From Lachnospiraceae bacterium (GTDB lineage: Bacteria > Bacillota > Clostridia > Lachnospirales > Lachnospiraceae), in NCBI GenBank assembly GCA_021200475.1, contig JAJQGP010000137.1:1-46852 (forward strand): 46,852 bases of DNA, given 5' to 3'. Numbering within the stretch: the stretch's first letter is position 1; the number at the start of each line of letters is the position of its first letter. The position numbers and the translations under genes were made by a program. The notes under the pieces are model-generated. The model was not told where the DNA came from. It made no database searches and was given only the letters and a program-made list of their open reading frames with translations. Below are positions 8,620-28,375 of the stretch, one piece after another.

Positions 8620-8700
8620 AAAATTGAAATTTAGAAATATCGGAACTTTATGATTGAAATGGCTATTGAAAGTTCTTTCCGTTTTCGAGGGAGGTCAGCT

Positions 8701-10005
8701 ATGTATATAAAAAGACATTTAGAAGCTCAGATTTTGGAGTCATCAAAGTATTACCCGGTTGTCATGGTGTGCGGACAGCGGCAGGTCGGAAAATCAACCA
8801 TGCTGAATCAACTGCGTGAGAGTGGTCGAAGATATGTTACTCTGGATGATATGAATGCACGCCGATTGGCAGAGCAGGATCCGGGCTTGTTCCTTGAGAC
8901 ATATGGTGCGCCACTTTTGATTGACGAATTTCAGCGCGTACCTTCCCTGCTGCTGGAAATGAAACGAATCGTGGATCAGGCGGCATTAAACGGCGAAGAG
9001 GCAAATGGCAGATACTGGCTGACCGGTTCACAGAAGTTTTCGATGATGCGAGAGGTCTCGGAATCTCTTGCCGGACGTGTAGCAGTATTTGATCTGTCGA
9101 GTCTTTCCGTCTCGGAAATAGAAGGCCGCCCGGCAAGGCTGTTTCATCCGTCGCTGGAGGCTTTGCGGGAGCGTTTGGTGGAAACGTCCCCTCCTTTGCA
9201 GCCGGCGGCAGATCGCGGTTCTGATGCAGAAATCGCTTCGCAATTCAGAACCGCTGAAGACAGCAAACCGAAGGACATTCACCAGATTTTTCACCAGATT
9301 TTCCGCGGTGGTATGCCAAAGCTGGTCGCGACGAATATAGATCGGGAGCGCTACTATATGGATTATGTGAATACGTATCTGGAGCGCGATATAAAGGATC
9401 TGGCACAGGTTGGAAATCTCAGTACTTTCTATGATTTTCTGGTATTTATCGCCGCGCGTACCTCTGGCGAGCTGCGTTATGATGAGATCGCGAATGCGAT
9501 CGGCGTATCCGCGCCGACGGCGAAAGCCTGGGTTTCCATTCTGGAACGTTCTGGCGTGGTTTACATTTTACGTCCCTATTATTCGAATGTGACCAGACGT
9601 CTCGTGAAGACACCGAAGATTTATTTTATGGATACCGGGCTTGCGGCATATCTGTGCAGATGGCCAAGTGCGGAGACACTTGAATACGGCGCGATGGATG
9701 GCGCTTTTTTTGAAACCTGGGTGGTTTCTGAGATCGTGAAAAGCTATTATAACGCCGGAAAACGACCGGATTTATATTATTACAGGGATACCGATAAAAA
9801 AGAACTGGATCTTCTGATTGTAGAAGGCGATAAGCTTTATTCGATTGAGATCAAAAAAAGTAAGGCTCCGGCTCATCCGGATAAGAATTTTGGTGTGCTG
9901 GATAAATTTCATCTCGAGGTACAGCCAGGCATTGTTCTCTGCATGTGTGATGAAATCCTTCCATATAACCGAAATACCTGGCTGGTGCCGGTATCAGTAT
10001 TGTAA
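8701..10005 (+). CDS. AAA_14 / DUF4143 family ATP-binding protein carrying an in-frame palindromic repeat
   Basis: This 434-residue P-loop protein is of the AAA_14-DUF4143 type common in anaerobes, whose cellular role is not established. Walker A is GQRQVGKST (residues 25-33) and Walker B is LLIDEF (about 77-82). A sensor-like LTGSQKF follows, and the C-terminal DUF4143 domain contains a winged-helix-like part and a nuclease-like ELDLLI stretch. The ATG at 8701 is chosen because GGGAGG precedes it; an ATG at 8650 lacks this. Residues about 161-185 look inserted: they are encoded by a palindromic repeat (9180-9255) that recurs in lpd, and the reading frame is kept. The gene has its own promoter and no obvious partner. 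Confidence 0.88.
   Translation: MYIKRHLEAQILESSKYYPVVMVCGQRQVGKSTMLNQLRESGRRYVTLDDMNARRLAEQDPGLFLETYGAPLLIDEFQRVPSLLLEMKRIVDQAALNGEEANGRYWLTGSQKFSMMREVSESLAGRVAVFDLSSLSVSEIEGRPARLFHPSLEALRERLVETSPPLQPAADRGSDAEIASQFRTAEDSKPKDIHQIFHQIFRGGMPKLVATNIDRERYYMDYVNTYLERDIKDLAQVGNLSTFYDFLVFIAARTSGELRYDEIANAIGVSAPTAKAWVSILERSGVVYILRPYYSNVTRRLVKTPKIYFMDTGLAAYLCRWPSAETLEYGAMDGAFFETWVVSEIVKSYYNAGKRPDLYYYRDTDKKELDLLIVEGDKLYSIEIKKSKAPAHPDKNFGVLDKFHLEVQPGIVLCMCDEILPYNRNTWLVPVSVL
9180..9255 (+). repeat. In-frame palindromic repeat, copy 1 (inside the AAA_14 gene)
   Basis: These 76 bases match 27776-27850 at about 64 of 75 aligned positions, with one extra base here. The core is a hairpin with perfect 10-base arms, GCGGTTCTGA (9215-9224) and TCAGAACCGC (9245-9254), and a smaller nested stem around GCTTCGC. 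It is read as the peptide ETSPPLQPAADRGSDAEIAS and onward, without a stop. Confidence 0.85.
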
Positions 10006-12111: not shown

Positions 12112-12529
12112 AAGAAAGTCTTTTACAGTTACAGGGTTACGGAAAGTAATGAAAAACGAATTCTCGGCTTGAGAATAATGTATTATGGCTTGAAGTGTTG
12201 CCATATGAAACTATGACTACACATTAATAGTATAAACCGTATTGACTTTATGCGGTCTGAATTGCCAGATCCCGCTATTGAGCAATGATACGGATACAAT
12301 GAACCATCTGGCTCCTGTTGGCAGTGCTTTGTTTTGCAAAAGGACAGAGGCTTTATGGACTGGTAATTTCAGTTTGCTTCAATTGGAGGGCTATTAGCTC
12401 TTTTAAACAGGAAATGCGCTGCAATACGGATGCGCACCTTAAAAAAGAAAGAGAACTAAGATATTTAGAAATATAAGAAATTTGAGAAAAAATCCAAGCA
12501 GAAACTATATGAGAAAGAAGGAGATGATT

Positions 12530-13438
12530 ATGAGATTTCGTGTTTTTAACCGGTTTGATAGTGAAGAAGATGATAAAGAAGAAAATAAAGAGAAAATAAA
12601 TACAGAGGAAATAAATAAAGAGAGTTTACAGGAAGAAAAAGTACGAGAAGATAAGACAACTGATCAAAACAAAGTACTACTTGGAAGGCTGAAAAAAAAG
12701 CTGATAATTTTGAGTATTATTATTTTGCTGTCTGTAATTGCTGGATTTATTGCAGGAACAATCAGCAATAGTTTGGAAATAAAAAAGGGAATACAAAATG
12801 AGGAAGAGATAACAGGAAATATGTCAGATGCAGAAGAATTTGTGTATGAGGAATTATACGAAGCGACGGAAGCGGAGGATAACGAAATAGATATCTCTTC
12901 ATTGGTCGGCAGGGTAGTATATGCAAGTAATATGAGTGAACGGTTTGAATATAGCTGTGCTGATTCGGCGATATCCTACATTCAGGAAAACCAACGATGG
13001 TTTATTTCGCCGAATGGTTATTTGGAAAAAGTAAAGGAAAATGCGCTCACTGATATCACATATGATACGATTGTATCTAAAATAGAAGCATATGCAGATA
13101 AAGTGGTGCTGATTGAAAATGTGGAGGTCACGGGAATAGAACAAATAACACTGGATGATAGTAAAAACAGCAAGGTTACGTTATTTGAGGCTAAAGATTG
13201 TGACGGAAACATATATGTTGTCTATGTGGATGATGATATTACAGATATAGAAATAGAAAGTAAATGGAATTTTTATGGTATTGCGATGGGGGAAGCAATC
13301 ATTAATGAAACAGAAAGTGAAGATATTGAGGAATGTGTGGCGCTCCTGTGCTGCTGCTATGAAACTGCTAAAGCAGGGTTGATCAGCAATATCTTGAACT
13401 TCGGAAAAAATATATGGAGTAAGACACCTTTTGGATAA
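12530..13438 (+). CDS. Single-pass membrane protein with OB-like C-terminal domain and Cys-Cys-Cys motif (island protein 1)
   Basis: This 302-residue protein has an acidic, Lys/Glu-rich cytoplasmic head (1-52), one membrane helix (about 57-78) and an outward C-terminal domain (about 125-280). That domain is shared with the proteins from 14971 and 16256: a RVVYASN opening, YDTIVSKIEAY, NIYVVYVDDDITDIE, FYGIAMG and a final ALLCCCYE. The pattern of a Tyr-Asp helix, then a strand carrying VYVD, then a YG.P.G-like loop resembles the OB-fold domain of clostridial lipoproteins. The ATG at 12530 follows AAGGAG at about 6 bases; two in-frame ATGs lie just upstream. The DNA is AT-rich. Function unknown. 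Confidence 0.75.
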   Translation: MRFRVFNRFDSEEDDKEENKEKINTEEINKESLQEEKVREDKTTDQNKVLLGRLKKKLIILSIIILLSVIAGFIAGTISNSLEIKKGIQNEEEITGNMSDAEEFVYEELYEATEAEDNEIDISSLVGRVVYASNMSERFEYSCADSAISYIQENQRWFISPNGYLEKVKENALTDITYDTIVSKIEAYADKVVLIENVEVTGIEQITLDDSKNSKVTLFEAKDCDGNIYVVYVDDDITDIEIESKWNFYGIAMGEAIINETESEDIEECVALLCCCYETAKAGLISNILNFGKNIWSKTPFG

Positions 13439-13465
13439 GAATAATAAGGGAGAGGAAAGAAAGGC

Positions 13466-14242
13466 GTGAAAAGGATAAAGAGAAACAGGATGTCAGAGGA
13501 ACAGGAAAATAGTACCAATCGTAATACTGTAGGACAAACGGAAGAACAAAATGATCAAAAGAATTCATATGAAATAGAAAACCAGACTACAGAAAATATT
13601 CGGAATGAGGGAGTCTCTGCAACTCAACGTCGAGGTGACAGGTTAAAGAAGATAACCAGAATCTTTGGAGGAAAGTACAGGAAAATTAAGTTGGCTTCTT
13701 CAATTGTGGTGATAGGGCTTATAGTACTTTTGTTTGGTTTACGATATTTATCTGTGATGCAGATTCGTAAAGCAGTTTCAATTGTGAGCGAGATTAAAGA
13801 AATATCTAAGCTGGCCACTTATGAATATGATTATACTTTATTGAATAAAACGACAAGTAGGGGCTCGATTTTGAAAAGCGAAGAAATTACAATGTACATG
13901 TATAGTGGGACTATAATCTTTGGGATTGATTGTGAAAAAGTTGATGTCAGTGTGGAGGAAGAAAAGATAATCGTTACATTGCCCGAAGTAGAAATCTTAT
14001 CTCATGAAATTTATCCGGATAGTTATATTTACAATATTGGGTCAAATAATAACACTACAGTATTAGAGGCTAGCAGTAACCAGACAGATGATAAGTCTAT
14101 AGCGGAAGAACAGGCGTTTGATAAGGGGTGTGATGAACAGGCTTTGGAGAATGCCAGGAAGCAAATAGAAAAGATGATTCTTTTAATAATGGAAGATGCA
14201 AATGGCGAAACGTATGAGATTGAGTTTGCAGAAGCAGAATAA
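13466..14242 (+). CDS. DUF4230 membrane-anchored protein (island protein 2)
   Basis: This 258-residue protein has a hydrophilic N-terminus (1-72), one membrane helix (about 76-97) and an extracytoplasmic DUF4230 domain (about 100-258). The family pattern is clear: ISKLATYEYDYT, then MYSGTIIFGIDCEKV, then VTLPEVEILSHEIYPDSY, then a charged helical end. A GTG start at 13466 is used; an ATG at 13490 is an alternative with a poorer ribosome site. It starts 27 bases after island protein 1. DUF4230 has no established function. Confidence 0.82.
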   Translation: MKRIKRNRMSEEQENSTNRNTVGQTEEQNDQKNSYEIENQTTENIRNEGVSATQRRGDRLKKITRIFGGKYRKIKLASSIVVIGLIVLLFGLRYLSVMQIRKAVSIVSEIKEISKLATYEYDYTLLNKTTSRGSILKSEEITMYMYSGTIIFGIDCEKVDVSVEEEKIIVTLPEVEILSHEIYPDSYIYNIGSNNNTTVLEASSNQTDDKSIAEEQAFDKGCDEQALENARKQIEKMILLIMEDANGETYEIEFAEAE

Positions 14243-14303
14243 GAACGGATAAAAGAATTTCCTGCCGAGTATAGGATAACAGAAGAAATAAAGAGGAAAG
14301 AGA

Positions 14304-14915
14304 ATGAATGAAAGAGTAGAAGCAAAGGCAAAATGGAGAAGATACATCTTAGGGGGTTGCTTGGTCATATTGCTGGTTTTGGGGGTTACCGTGGCAGTAA
14401 ATTATTATATTAGACCTCATATTGTTACAACGGCAACTATAACCAATGAAATAAAGAGCATTTCGATCCTTGAAACACTTGAATATGATTATACGCTTGC
14501 CAGTAATATTGATATCAAGGATAATTTATTTATTGTAATACCTGTTGATAAGGCTGATTCTATATATGAGTATAGCGGTTGCATTGTTTTTGGCGTTGAT
14601 TGCAGTAAAATAGAAATAGAAAAAGAGCAAAATACATTCATTGTAACTTTGCCTGAGGCAGAAATGGTATCACATGAGATCTATACAGATAGCTATGATG
14701 TGATAGTAGGTGAGAATAGAAAGATGACCAATGAGGCTTATTTGGAAAATCAGCAGATGGATAAGGAAAAGGCAGAAGAGGCAGCAATAGCGCAAGGCTG
14801 CGCTGAAAGAGCATTGGCTAATGCAGAAGAACAGTTAGAAGAGTTGATACTGTATTTGAAAAATGATCCGGGAGGTGAAGAATATACGGTAGTGTTTAAC
14901 GTGGTGGAAGAATGA
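14304..14915 (+). CDS. DUF4230 membrane-anchored protein, shorter paralogue (island protein 3)
   Basis: This 203-residue paralogue of the previous protein has a short cytoplasmic end, one membrane helix (about 13-35) and a DUF4230 domain. The same landmarks occur: ISILETLEYDYT, YEYSGCIVFGVDCSKI and VTLPEAEMVSHEIYTDSYDV. The C-terminal helix carries KAEEAAIAQGCAERALANAE, matching EEQAFDKGCDEQALENARKQ in the paralogue; both keep a single Cys in this helix. Tandem duplication is likely. The start follows GAGGAAAG. Confidence 0.82.
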   Translation: MNERVEAKAKWRRYILGGCLVILLVLGVTVAVNYYIRPHIVTTATITNEIKSISILETLEYDYTLASNIDIKDNLFIVIPVDKADSIYEYSGCIVFGVDCSKIEIEKEQNTFIVTLPEAEMVSHEIYTDSYDVIVGENRKMTNEAYLENQQMDKEKAEEAAIAQGCAERALANAEEQLEELILYLKNDPGGEEYTVVFNVVEE

Positions 14916-14970
14916 TATTTCGGCAATATTTCATGTGTGAAAACAAAAATGTTTTGAGATAAGGAGAAAA

Positions 14971-15927
14971 ATGAAAAAAATACGAATGAGAAAAATAAAG
15001 TGCAGGGATAAAGTGAGATGGGGGATTTGCGGAGCATTAGTATGTTTTTGCCTGCTATTAGGGGGGTGCTCTCTTTCTAACGGAGTTGAGACCAAAACAA
15101 CCAATCAGAGCCAATATGATATTGTGTTTACAAAGAAAAATTCTTCATCATGGGAACAAAAGCTTTATACATCAACAGAGAGCATGGTTACTGTCAGTGT
15201 TACAAGTGAGGGTGGAAAAGTAGCGGTTACGCTTGAAAATGAAGAAGGGGACGTTTATGTAAGTAAGGGAAAAATTTTGACGGATGCAACATTTACCACC
15301 GGTGTAAAATCAGGGCCTGTTTATGTGACGATAAAAGGGGCAAAATTCAAAGGAGAAGTGAATGTAAAGATTATTGACAGTGATGAGTCGAGCGAAGAGG
15401 TATCTGAAAGTGTGGAAGATGAGTCACAAAGCGAAATGCCGGTAGACACTATAGCAGAAAGAGTAGTTTATGCAGGGGCGGTTAGCAAAAAATTTGAATA
15501 TGATATGGGAGAAAAAGCAACTGAGTTTTCTGAGAACTACCTGACATGGTTTGAGGATTTAGAAGGAGATACAGAGGAAAAGAAAAAAACAGCCAATAGT
15601 AAACTTGATTATGAGGATCTAATAAGTGATTCAGAGGTTCTGGAAAGAAATGGAAATCAAGTGATATCCATTGAAAAGGCGAAAGTCATCGCTATTGAGG
15701 AAATCAAAATTGATGGAAAAGGAAGAATTACATTAATAGAGGTAACGGATAAAAAAGGAAATGGGGATTCCTATATAGTGTATATAGATCAGGAAGTTTC
15801 TGATATTGAATTGGATGACACTTTAACTATATATGGAATTCCTATAGGAACTGGAACGGTTTATGATGATCCAAATCAGGGATGTATTCAGGCTCTTGCT
15901 GTTTTGTGCTGCTATTATAAAGAATAA
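14971..15927 (+). CDS. Lipoprotein with beta-rich N-domain and OB-like Cys-Cys C-domain (island protein 4)
   Basis: This 318-residue lipoprotein has a basic N-terminus, a hydrophobic core and lipobox LLGGC with Cys33. Residues about 45-132 form a beta-rich domain (VTVSVTSEGGKVAVTLENEE). After an acidic Ser/Glu linker comes the same C-terminal domain as island proteins 1 and 5: RVVYAGAVSKKFEY, NWF-like LTWFED, YEDLISDSEVL, YIVYIDQEVSDIE, IYGIPIGTG and the final LAVLCCYYKE. AAGGAG precedes the ATG. Outer-face anchoring is inferred from the lipobox. Function unknown. Confidence 0.8.
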   Translation: MKKIRMRKIKCRDKVRWGICGALVCFCLLLGGCSLSNGVETKTTNQSQYDIVFTKKNSSSWEQKLYTSTESMVTVSVTSEGGKVAVTLENEEGDVYVSKGKILTDATFTTGVKSGPVYVTIKGAKFKGEVNVKIIDSDESSEEVSESVEDESQSEMPVDTIAERVVYAGAVSKKFEYDMGEKATEFSENYLTWFEDLEGDTEEKKKTANSKLDYEDLISDSEVLERNGNQVISIEKAKVIAIEEIKIDGKGRITLIEVTDKKGNGDSYIVYIDQEVSDIELDDTLTIYGIPIGTGTVYDDPNQGCIQALAVLCCYYKE

Positions 15928-15992
15928 CGTTTGTTATTCAATGGAGTACTGCACACTTGATGCGAAGTACGTATGAAAACTTATATTATGTA

Positions 15993-16079
15993 GGGAAAAG
16001 CCCTCGCCGGGTGGCATCCCATCCAAAAACCGGATAGGATAATCCCTATCGCGCAGCGCTTCTAAATGGGCTTTTTCCT
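15993..16079. repeat. MITE-like element with 12-base terminal inverted repeats
   Basis: The ends are AGGGAAAAGCCC and GGGCTTTTTCCT, complementary except for one base. The interior folds further, with GGATAGG/CCTATC-type stems and a GGATGGGATG-type arm. On either strand an outer GC stem is flanked by A or T runs, so it could also act as a bidirectional terminator. No target-site duplication could be confirmed. Confidence 0.5.
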
Positions 16080-16080
16080 C

Positions 16081-16108
16081 GTAACTGCGAAGGTGTTGAG
16101 CAGTTAGG
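16081..16108. repeat. Hairpin GTAACTGC / GCAGTTAG
   Basis: GTAACTGC and GCAGTTAG are complementary except at the end base and flank an 11-base loop. It directly abuts the element at 15993-16079. The GTAAC...GTTA-type ends recall the palindromes at 8397-8565 and 20740-20814. Confidence 0.5.
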
Positions 16109-16255
16109 AATAGCGATATGGCCAGGCTTTTCTGCTTATTATATGGTACGAAAAAGTGTTTGGAAAATATTAGATGTTTGTATGATCCTATCCGTGACTT
16201 CTTTGTGATTATGACAGTATATTTGTTGAAAAACAGGAAAGAGAAGAGATAAATA

Positions 16256-17404
16256 ATGGAGCAAAATGATAAAAATGATAAGAAAAGAAACTTAATTAAA
16301 ACGATATGCTTTGTTGGTATTCAAGTAGTGCTGATCCTTGTATTTGTTGTTTTTTCGCTTTCAGCTGGCTGGAAAATTGCAAAAAAAAGTAAAGTGACAG
16401 GAGCTTCCTTTGTTGGTGTGTCTGCTAATGTAATAGAATTTTTGTTCCCTTCTAACATAGAGAACGGGGAGCAGTCAAATGATCAGATATTGGAAGAAGT
16501 GGATAATGGCGTTACTGATTCTATGACAGAAACGGAAAAAGACGTAAAAGAAGAAACAGAAAAAGAAACGGAAAAAGCAATAAAAGGAGAAACAGAAAAA
16601 GAAACGGAGAAGGAAACAGTAAAAGAAACAGAAATAAAAAAGGAAACGGAAGAACAAACTGAGAGACAGACAGACAGCAAATCAGTGGAACAAAAAATAG
16701 AGGAAAAAGATGAGATAGATGAGACGGCAGGAACGCAGGCGTTCACAGAAGCTTTATTAGAGAACGATGAGGAAGTGGTGCCAGAGACAGAAGCAGAATT
16801 AATGTATGTGGATGAGGAAGAGACAGAAAACAAGACAGAGTGCGAAACTGAGATACTTCTTCCGGATTACCAATTTCTTGCTGAGCGTGTGAAATATACG
16901 GGCACGAATAGTATTTATTTCCAGTATGAGGTAGACAATACTGCGTCTGAATATATTGAGCGTATGGAAAACTGGTTTACCAGTATTGAAACAGATGAAA
17001 AGAATAAAAGGACTGCTGCGGATTCAGATTGGACGTACTCGGATATTATTAAGAATATAGAAAAATATGAAGAACAGTTAATAGCAATCAAAAAGGTTGA
17101 CGTTACAAAAGTTGAGTATGTTTCAATAAAAGATGAAGCAACTAATGTTTTATATCGGGCTACCTTGTTGGAAGGGCATGATTCTGATGATGAGGAAGCA
17201 CGTTATGTTATATATATAGACCAGAAAATATCGGATATTTCAGAGGGGGACTGCATAAACATATATGCGCTTCCGATTGGAGCGGGATCAGTAGGAGAAG
17301 AAGATAATAGACAAGAGGCGCTTGTTGTGCTGTGTTGTTATGTGAAAAAGACATCGAACATTGTAGGAAACATCACAGGAAAAATTACGGATATTTTTTC
17401 ATGA
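16256..17404 (+). CDS. Membrane-anchored protein with Glu/Lys/Thr repeat stalk and OB-like Cys-Cys domain (island protein 5)
   Basis: This 382-residue protein has a short basic end, one membrane helix (about 16-38), a long low-complexity acidic stretch (about 80-200) built largely from short ETEKE and KETEK units, and the shared C-terminal domain (about 205-365). Shared landmarks are RVKYTGTNSIYFQY, ENWFTS, YSDIIKNIEKY, YVIYIDQKISDIS, IYALPIGAGS and LVVLCCYVKK. The stretch probably acts as an extended spacer that lifts the domain off the membrane. Repeat DNA such as GAAACAGAAAAAGAAACGGA could expand or contract by slippage. Function unknown. Confidence 0.78.
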   Translation: MEQNDKNDKKRNLIKTICFVGIQVVLILVFVVFSLSAGWKIAKKSKVTGASFVGVSANVIEFLFPSNIENGEQSNDQILEEVDNGVTDSMTETEKDVKEETEKETEKAIKGETEKETEKETVKETEIKKETEEQTERQTDSKSVEQKIEEKDEIDETAGTQAFTEALLENDEEVVPETEAELMYVDEEETENKTECETEILLPDYQFLAERVKYTGTNSIYFQYEVDNTASEYIERMENWFTSIETDEKNKRTAADSDWTYSDIIKNIEKYEEQLIAIKKVDVTKVEYVSIKDEATNVLYRATLLEGHDSDDEEARYVIYIDQKISDISEGDCINIYALPIGAGSVGEEDNRQEALVVLCCYVKKTSNIVGNITGKITDIFS

Positions 17405-20828: not shown

Positions 20829-20990
20829 CGGGTGATGAGACTGGGAGAGATACGATGTGGTGCGCCGAAGGGGCTGAAGAACTCTCAGGCAAAAGGACCA
20901 GTTTCTGACGATACTCTGGAAAGCGGCAGGTAATGCCGCGCCGAAGAAGCAACCGGATGGTTTCCGGGAATCTTTCAGGTAGCATGACAG
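20829..20990 (+). promoter_or_regulatory. Tandem glycine riboswitch
   Basis: The first aptamer carries the hallmark pieces GGGAGAG (20843-20849), GCGCCGAAGGGGC (20862-20874) and CTCTCAGGCAAAAGGACC (20882-20899). A second aptamer follows with GCCGCGCCGAAGAAGC (20935-20950) and TCTTTCAGG (20971-20979). A terminator follows at once and the glycine cleavage genes lie downstream. Glycine binding is expected to prevent termination and switch on glycine breakdown, as known for this class. Confidence 0.93.
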
Positions 20991-20991
20991 A

Positions 20992-21024
20992 GCGCGAGAC
21001 ATTTTATTTGTCTCGCGCTTTTTT
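20992..21024 (+). terminator. Riboswitch-controlled intrinsic terminator
   Basis: GCGCGAGAC (20992-21000) pairs with GTCTCGCGC (21010-21018) and is followed by TTTTTT. It directly follows the second glycine aptamer. Confidence 0.9.
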
Positions 21025-26846: not shown

Positions 26847-28375
26847 ATGAGCGAACGGTTTGATCTGACGATTATTGGCGCGGGACCCGGCGGTTACGAA
26901 GCGGCTTTTGAAGCGGCCCGGCTCGGTTTTCGCACCGCTTTGGTGGAAAAGGATACTCTTGGCGGCACCTGTCTGAACCGGGGGTGTATTCCGACAAAAA
27001 CGCTGATTCACACAGCAGAATTATATGAGGAAATCAAAAATGCCGCCCGCTTTGGGATTCATGCAGAGCCGCCGGTTCTGGACTGGAATGCGGTGCGGCA
27101 GCACAAAACAGATACCATTGCCGCTCTGCAAAAGGGGATTGCGGCCAGGCTGAAAGCGGCGAAGGTGGCGGTGTACCAGGGAAGCGGGAGCGTGGTTCCG
27201 GGATTTTTTATCGCAGGAGAAGGGCAGCCAATGGGGCCAGTTCCTGTCTCCGGAGAAGCAGCCCACCGGGTGCTGATCACCGCAGCGGATGGTTCCGTGA
27301 CGACTCTGGAAACGGAACGGGTGCTTCTGGCGACCGGAAGTGTGCCTGCCGTCCCGCCCATTCCCGGCCATGATCTGCCGGGAGTCATGATGAGCGATGA
27401 ACTGCTTGCGTATGATGGGGCACCACTGGAATCGCTGCTGATTATCGGCGGCGGTGTGATTGGCGTGGAATTTGCCGGAATCTGGCAGTCATTTGGGACG
27501 AAAATCACAATTCTGGAAGCCCTGCCGTCCCTGATTGCCAATCTGGACCGTGAGCTTTCACAGAGCCTGAAGCTTTCGCTGAAGAAAAAAGGAGCAGATA
27601 TTCACACAGGTGCAAACGTACAGTGCCTTTCTCCTGTGGCTGGAGGGATCTGCTGTACTTATCTGGAAAAAGAACAGGAACAGACCTGTACGGCGCAGGC
27701 GGTGCTGATCGCGACCGGGCGCCGTCCCTTTACAGAAGGATTATTTCCGGAAGCGACAGAGACGGCTCCTGCCAGGGAAACGCCCCTCCCATGCGGTCGG
27801 CGGCAGAACGCGATTCTGGTGCAGAAATTGCTTCGCGATTCAGAGTCGCTATGGAACGCGGCCGCATCCTGGTGGATGACGATTATGAAACCAGCATTCC
27901 GGGCATTTACGCGATCGGTGATGTGATCGGAAAACTACCGCTCGCCCACGCGGCGACTGCGCAGGGCAAAAAGGCTGTCCGCCACATGGCGGGGAAGGAG
28001 GACGGAAATTCCTGTGAACCGGTTCCCTCCTGCATCTATACCAGTCCGGAAATCGCCTCTGTCGGGCTGACGCTTGAGCAGGCCAAAAACAGGGGAATCG
28101 CTGCCAGGAGTCATAAAATACTGAGTTCGGCGAATGGAAAATCCGTCCTGACGATGCAGGAGCGGGGATTTATCAAGGTTGTCTATGAAGAGCAAAGTCA
28201 TGTGCTCCTTGGTGCGCACATGTTCTGCGCGCGGGCAACGGATATGATCAGTGAATTTGCCCTGGCCATACAAAGAGGCCTGACCATGGAAGAAATGGCA
28301 GAAGTCGTGCGTCCGCATCCCTCCTTTAGCGAGATGATTACGGACGCTGTAACGAGTGTGCCAATGCTTGCGTAA
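26847..28375 (+). pseudogene. lpdA: Dihydrolipoyl dehydrogenase (L protein), frameshifted inside an inserted palindromic repeat
   Basis: The first frame carries the FAD motif GAGPGGYEAA (11-20), the redox pair C42/C47 in TCLNRGC, and the NAD-binding IIGGGVIGVEFAG. It then runs into an insertion after LFPEA. The second frame resumes as RFRVAMERGRILVDDDYETS with the FAD-binding YAIGDV and the active-site HPSFSEM. The insertion is repeat copy 2 (27776-27850). Copy 1 has one more base in ACGTCCCCTCC, against ACGCCCCTCC here (27780-27789). Restoring that base gives one frame of 509 residues. So the repeat alone would be tolerated and the lost base breaks the gene. L protein is needed for the operon's pathway, so a sequencing error or a second lpd elsewhere should be considered. 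Confidence 0.92.
27776..27850 (+). repeat. In-frame palindromic repeat, copy 2 (inside lpdA)
   Basis: This 75-base match to 9180-9255 has arms GCGATTCTGG (27810-27819) and TCAGAGTCGC (27840-27849). Compared with copy 1, one arm pair changes from G-C to A-T on both sides and two others become G-T, so pairing is kept. In the intended frame it reads ETSPPMRSAAERDSGAEIAS and onward. It lies between LFPEA and VAMERGRI of dihydrolipoyl dehydrogenase. Confidence 0.85.

Follow-up and report, generated by a model that had tools for sequence, protein, structure and literature searches.

The window analysed here is a stretch of 46,852 nucleotides from a Lachnospiraceae bacterium (contig JAJQGP010000137.1, positions 1 to 46,852 of the forward strand). 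It carries two copies of a short palindromic element, each inside a protein gene. The features are as follows.

8650..10005, plus strand: host gene 1, an ATPase with AAA_14 (PF13173) and DUF4143 (PF13635) domains, 451 aa, frame open across the insert
9179..9256 (+/-1 nt), minus strand: element copy 1, 78 nt net, inside the AAA_14/DUF4143 gene; limits based on the empty site in L113
9215..9254, minus strand: hairpin 1 of copy 1, outer stem GCGGTTCTG/CAGAACCGC (plus-strand reading), inner helix around a GCGAAGC loop
9185..9211, minus strand: hairpin 2 of copy 1, stem CTGCCGCC...GGGG.CG
26847..28375, plus strand: host gene 2, lpdA, dihydrolipoyl dehydrogenase, in two frames (26847-27926 and 27623-28375)
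27775..27851, minus strand: element copy 2, about 77 nt, inside lpdA; limits by analogy

Elsewhere in the window a glycine riboswitch aptamer (20906-21000) lies directly upstream of apparent glycine cleavage system genes, and the list of open reading frames shows, by eye, a row of similar membrane or secreted proteins resembling tandem paralogues (12482-17404).

A sequence-only reading of this DNA had reported two related segments matching at about 64 of 75 positions and read in the same frame in both hosts. We found both segments where it had placed them. A MAFFT alignment gave 60 of 75 identical ungapped columns with a 1-nt gap set at the end, and the figure of 64 is plausible with a better-placed gap. 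One 25-base core is present at exactly two places in the window, whereas 100 shuffles gave none. The AAA_14 copy is indeed read through and adds 26 aa to the protein (about VETSPPLQPAADRGSDAEIASQFRTA). However, the shared frame does not extend to lpdA, where the copy is about 1 nt shorter than the usual length and the frame breaks inside the element, giving two open reading frames and two tblastn pieces. In the sister genome G010 the orthologous lpdA copy is in frame, within one open frame of 514 aa that scores above the TIGR01350 cut-off.

Copy 1 matched the Rfam family RF02987, "GA-cis RNA", over its full length on the minus strand (9176-9258, 40.3 bits, cut-off 34.7), while copy 2 scored 29.2 bits, which is below the cut-off. 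We built a covariance model, R1, from 34 copies of the same genome; it gave 75.7 bits for copy 1 and 66.0 bits for copy 2 (27772-27853), both window copies being members of the set from which it was made. Since the RF02987 match lies on the minus strand, the RNA-like strand is antisense to both host genes. The GA-cis family was reportedly first described in a 2017 RNA survey.

Folded singly, the window copies form a long stem and a second hairpin, but their stability is unremarkable (z -0.16 to -1.78), and we rejected single-sequence folding as evidence of structure because it was not significant. The earlier claim that structure is kept between copies stands on comparison instead. The comparison covered 118 aligned copies, of which 116 are distinct. 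Standard pairs fill 98.4% of their 2203 pair cells (81.0% after shuffling), and 337 cells carry double changes, compared with 64 after shuffling; the fit of the alignment to the model biases it towards pairing, and related copies inflate the covariation counts. Sliding the stem partners abolishes the pairing signal. All four Watson-Crick types occur at five of the six outer-stem pairs, and the consensus of hairpin 2 holds a covarying 2-bp helix flanked by GA on both sides.

The genome is a draft of 3.22 Mb in 180 contigs, 98% complete. Further copies, whose absence would have counted against the sequence-only reading, were abundant: at E<1e-3 the Rfam model found 37 matches, 32 of them above its cut-off, and R1 found 56. 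The consensus and structure are the same as those of GA-cis RNA, and these 32 copies reach its gathering score. Rfam catalogues that family as an sRNA, and its name implies a location in cis, upstream of genes. The element here is instead high-copy and largely intragenic, with 25 of the 37 copies (the lpdA copy included) lying wholly within one long, coding-scoring open reading frame by a lenient test that used a codon-usage score trained on the other genes of the window.

The hosts are diverse. DNA polymerase III alpha (dnaE, 1248 aa), MurF, LL-diaminopimelate aminotransferase (DapL) and TatD score above curated NCBIfam cut-offs. Pfam identified IMP cyclohydrolase, UDP-galactopyranose mutase, a BrxC/BrxD-family ATPase, rhamnosidases and two AAA_14 ATPases; one scanned host (L227) had no Pfam match. 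An 849-aa esterase gene carries three element copies in three phases. At L215 (9258-11363) a 702-aa open reading frame fuses an ABC transporter ATPase to a UDP-galactopyranose mutase and holds two tandem copies.

We scored reading frame and orientation in 125 copies of at least 60 bits from seven genomes, comprising 34 copies of the same genome and 91 from 80 regions in six relatives, these regions being those with the best Rfam matches and a subset of all copies. By a strict test, in which the coding score passes the threshold on both sides and one frame runs through, 65 of the 125 copies are genic (21/34 and 44/91, respectively). Six of the remaining 60, the lpdA copy included, lie between stretches of coding DNA but break the frame, a count made with slightly different thresholds from the strict test. 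The RNA-like strand is antisense to the host in 46 of the 65 genic copies and sense in 19. Forty-one of the 46 antisense copies are entered in one frame (typically x-E-T/M-P-P), five in a second and none in the third, which is used by two long-ORF copies in the separate named-contig set (L117, L172). Counted over the 65 genic copies, the antisense frames are open in 61, 37 and 46 cases respectively, and thus stops alone do not explain the entry-frame bias. The 60 non-genic copies have 3.90 of six frames open per copy versus 2.67 in shuffles.

Model-match lengths of 80, 83 or 86 were found in 55/65 genic and 43/60 other copies (p 0.09). We therefore rejected a length divisible by three as a mark of selection, since the genic excess is not significant and this length is mainly a property of the family. 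Some copies are longer, at about 120 nt (L221:171-292, L065:2879-3000, L071:2779-2900 and L165:4188-4306), with a second GC-rich palindrome nested in the hairpin 2 loop; the added peptide has PPEGRGC in three of the four (L221, L065, L165), and the same piece was seen near L130 and L368. Another palindrome-like piece recurs inside genes near element remnants, with the peptide RSALNxxPLD, at five distinct places among the loci examined (L204 near 3892 and L364 near 3220; on the minus strand, L228 near 4073, L065 near 6619 and L126 near 4007).

Relatives show sites that lack the insert. For dapL the alignment splits into two pieces around residues 270 and 298, both on a single contig, in 23 of the 26 relatives within the genus; in G011 the two pieces lie on two contigs, and in G009 and G017 there is an N-terminal piece only. 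DapL is 430 aa here, compared to 404 aa in 21 of the 22 relatives recovered by motif and 406 aa in the other one. The site is plain in the DNA of G010, at 99% protein identity, and the dapL insert was found in this genome only among the genus genomes searched. We also modelled DapL with its insert by AlphaFold2 from a 23-sequence alignment, but at a mean pLDDT of 40.8 the model is unusable and we make no claim on the place of the insert in the fold.

The AAA_14 insert is present only in this genome (G000) and G010 among the 27 genus genomes. Its site is plain in G001, while G008 and G013 are without the window's insert but carry the other insert, that of the L113 gene. A reciprocal case is the AAA_14 gene of L113, which lacks the 26-aa insert of the window and has its own elsewhere. 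The remaining AAA_14 matches reach no more than about 52% identity and cannot be taken as clear orthologues. lpdA was matched in 13 of the 27 genomes, with the insert in G000 and G010 only and plain sites in G008 and G013; the other lpdA sequences are about 45-62% identical, element-free and variable in loop length. The sequence-only reading had held that the element sits where the families normally have a short loop. For lpdA this is true of most of 11 aligned sequences, although loop length varies and, in the element-poor relative G012 (L404), the loop that holds the element in the window's lpdA is occupied by an unrelated, repetitive segment rich in Gln, Ala and Glu. Orthologues within the genus thus lack the segment rather than share it. 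Since the AAA_14 and lpdA inserts are confined to this genome and one sister species, and the dapL insert to this genome, we conclude that insertion is recent.

The net difference between filled and empty sites was 78 nt in 21 pairs, 72 nt in three, 75 nt in two, and 79 and 74 nt in one each, in a set of 28 pairs from different genomes that includes six tandem-array steps, one copy counted twice (L162, L338) and two sites seen in two species. The difference is a multiple of three in 26 of the 28. At the cleanest site (L372/L318) the flanks are identical at 85/85 positions and the 78-nt insert begins with AGCGCC and ends with TTTCCAT; there is no target duplication. Other non-tandem sites have 0-7 nt of ambiguity, and one has 10-11 nt (L368, L227).

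To describe its distribution we searched the 27 genus genomes with R1 at E<=1e-5. Eight had 27-85 copies, one had a single copy and 18 had none; the Rfam model gave three matches each in G003 and G004. The eight element-rich genomes, all of them draft assemblies, form a single branch (support 100/99) of a dapL tree that includes 23 of the 27 genomes, the four absent ones all being element-poor. Among 397 genomes of the family, with the best ten candidates scored per genome, Rfam matches were found in 29, this genome included, from 26 of 334 genera. In other genera at least 16 further genomes, reached via named contigs, have 1-37 copies; the pattern scan of those contigs returned at least 117 stretches, many of them unrelated and without a model match.

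We inspected 30 loci of these 16 genomes, and a motif found the element in 28, mostly in intergenic positions. By eye, many intergenic copies outside the clade begin at AGGAGG, with the ribosome-binding site and start of the gene itself coming after them. The element may insert at ribosome-binding sites outside the clade. Carriers there include the isolates Roseburia sp. 1XD42-69, Eubacterium sp. 14-2 and Petralouisia muris. At four loci of other genera (L236, L250, L256, L258) an AGGAGG start precedes the AGGAGG and ATG of the gene, and tandem units measure about 79-88 nt. Phages and plasmids are poor candidates as carriers, and we rejected them: a pattern scan of viral contigs gave 22 stretches, two with weak model matches (34.9 and 26.3 bits), and BLAST with one copy as query had no match among 50,697 phage records and two among 72,556 plasmid records, both partial and marginal.

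These data very probably describe a mobile palindrome, short and non-autonomous, whose spread took place in one Lachnospiraceae clade and which protein genes tolerate. We observed directly its many copies, its precise and species-limited insertion, the preservation of frame, strong covariation and an abundance limited to one clade. The unit consists of two hairpins with a net length of 78 nt, less often 75 or 72; this length, a multiple of three, and the scarcity of stops in its frames would account for the tolerance. An enzyme supplied in trans would copy or move the element as a folded single strand, which would land without an evident target sequence and join the target with little or no duplication. 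The host protein would then gain a segment of 24-26 aa. Selection would remove most frame-breaking insertions, while a stop-poor unit of 75 or 78 nt would let many survive as peptide inserts; such selection would leave the survivors enriched in one orientation and one entry frame (...ETPP...). The sequence-only reading had proposed a coding-compatible mobile palindrome like those of Rickettsia, and our results bear this out, although it had not noticed the frameshift in lpdA, the match to GA-cis on the opposite strand, the restriction to a clade or the fact that the element is read in more than one frame.

We considered whether the element could be a functional structured RNA, lying antisense to or within genes and kept for regulation of its hosts, with its spread secondary. 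Rfam lists the family as an sRNA, the covariation is strong, and in the 16 genomes inspected outside the clade many copies lie, by eye, just upstream of an open reading frame and start at AGGAGG. Orthologous copies also bear on this. In 21 orthologous copy pairs, which share members and from which the window versus L113 and L342 were excluded as different sites, nine double changes and six single changes left the bases paired and eight single changes broke a pair. Some orthologous genic copies preserve a pair through changes on both sides (L208/L078, L076/L300). Since orthologous copies keep pairs by compensation they are not simply decaying, and their sequences hint that the stems stay paired more than those of a dead insert should, as constraint after insertion would predict. 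As a test of selection after insertion, we rejected this comparison because the independent pairs are too few to separate constraint from renewed copying. Regulation fits less well with hosts and positions that are unrelated, with inserts that, for the three genes searched, only one or two species carry, with 19 sense copies beside the 46 antisense ones, and with three stem pairs broken between the lpdA copies of sister species. We therefore regard a regulatory RNA as unlikely.

Slightly less probable still is a REP-like element moved by a RAYT-type (Y1, IS200/IS605-like) transposase. The small hairpins, the tandem units and the lack of target duplication at the cleanest site would suit such a mover; RAYTs work on REP DNA in single-stranded form, and REPs inside genes are on record (PMC3733652). 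However, a search for Y1_Tnp (PF01797) gave no match in this genome (98% complete) or G013 (100%), both element-rich, while it was present in the other six of the eight element-rich genomes and in nine of the 19 element-poor genomes of the genus. Y1 thus does not track the element; with six element-rich genomes carrying it, it is an unlikely mover rather than a cleanly excluded one. The insert ends, AGC... and ...TTTCCAn, also carry neither a GTAG nor a CGTC tag.

A further reading is that the insert is never translated, either as a hairpin skipped by ribosomes, for which byp is a parallel, or as an intron-like segment cut from the RNA. Hairpin insertions in essential genes, and an lpdA copy out of frame in an otherwise open gene, are what this would look like. 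Yet skipping would lift the constraints on length and stops, and we found 65 frame-keeping copies against six broken ones with coding DNA on both sides, net differences that are nearly all multiples of three (26/28) and a strong entry-frame bias (41/46), which makes it very improbable. Finally, ancestral protein segments or assembly artefacts merely resembling insertions are hardly credible and already contradicted, for although the element-rich genomes are all drafts, the same insert lies at the same site in different assemblies (L216/L330, 19/19 pairs the same, flanks 96.5%), dapL is plain in 23 of 26 relatives (three ambiguous) and the carriers form one clade.

The mobile palindrome can be compared with known repeats. 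Rickettsia palindromic elements (RPEs) are short palindromes present many times in one genus, many of which sit in frame within protein genes of unrelated kinds and are translated as extra peptide (PMC10969869). The element is likewise a many-copy palindromic repeat inserted in frame in genes that stay open, the window's lpdA being the exception. It differs in its host group and in its length, 72-78 nt against about 150 bp for RPEs (PMC10969869). Its two-hairpin structure matches an Rfam RNA, unlike that of RPEs, and we liken the two by description rather than by sequence. RPEs are the closest parallel in behaviour. In Rickettsia conorii RPEs have a CGTC end tag (PMC3733652), which is absent from the element, whose clean inserts run AGC...TTTCCAn.

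REPs are short hairpin repeats, some of them intragenic in several species, including in replication and repair genes (PMC3733652). The element shares with them short hairpins, intragenic copies and tandem groups, but the GTAG end tag of REPs is absent from its insert ends; the main text of PMC3733652 contains no occurrence of "Firmicutes" or "Clostridi". Like MITEs the element is short, non-autonomous, high in copy number and patchy. In contrast to MITEs, its ends lack terminal inverted repeats, AGCGCC and TTTCCA not being complementary by eye. The cleanest site (L372/L318) has no target duplication, and the other non-tandem sites are ambiguous over 0-7 nt (10-11 nt at one). Since it matches the Rfam definition of GA-cis, is closest to RPEs in behaviour and has neither the RPE nor the REP end tag, we call it a GA-cis-derived, RPE-like coding palindrome, of a family already in Rfam.

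GA-cis is mostly intergenic in the other genera examined, and the coding-gene phase thus looks like a change of niche in this clade. We offer tentatively, as a possibility that we rate somewhat short of even, a wider view in which GA-cis would be a family of mobile DNA or RNA hairpins and not a regulatory RNA. In most Lachnospiraceae carriers it would sit between genes near ribosome-binding sites, and in one clade a stop-poor form with a length divisible by three would have moved into protein genes as a running source of new segments of 25 aa. Once inserted, the element would still have its pairing kept up, through templated correction of one arm against the other or through renewed copying.

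In a literature search made mostly without subscription papers, GA-cis was named only in a table row of the Rfam 15 paper, and no report of such elements in Clostridia or Lachnospiraceae was found. Our results suggest that a family listed in Rfam as an RNA is a mobile element. This lineage offers recent insertions, empty sites in sister species and hosts such as DnaE, MurF and DapL, and thus the origin of such segments and the tolerance of proteins towards them become testable.
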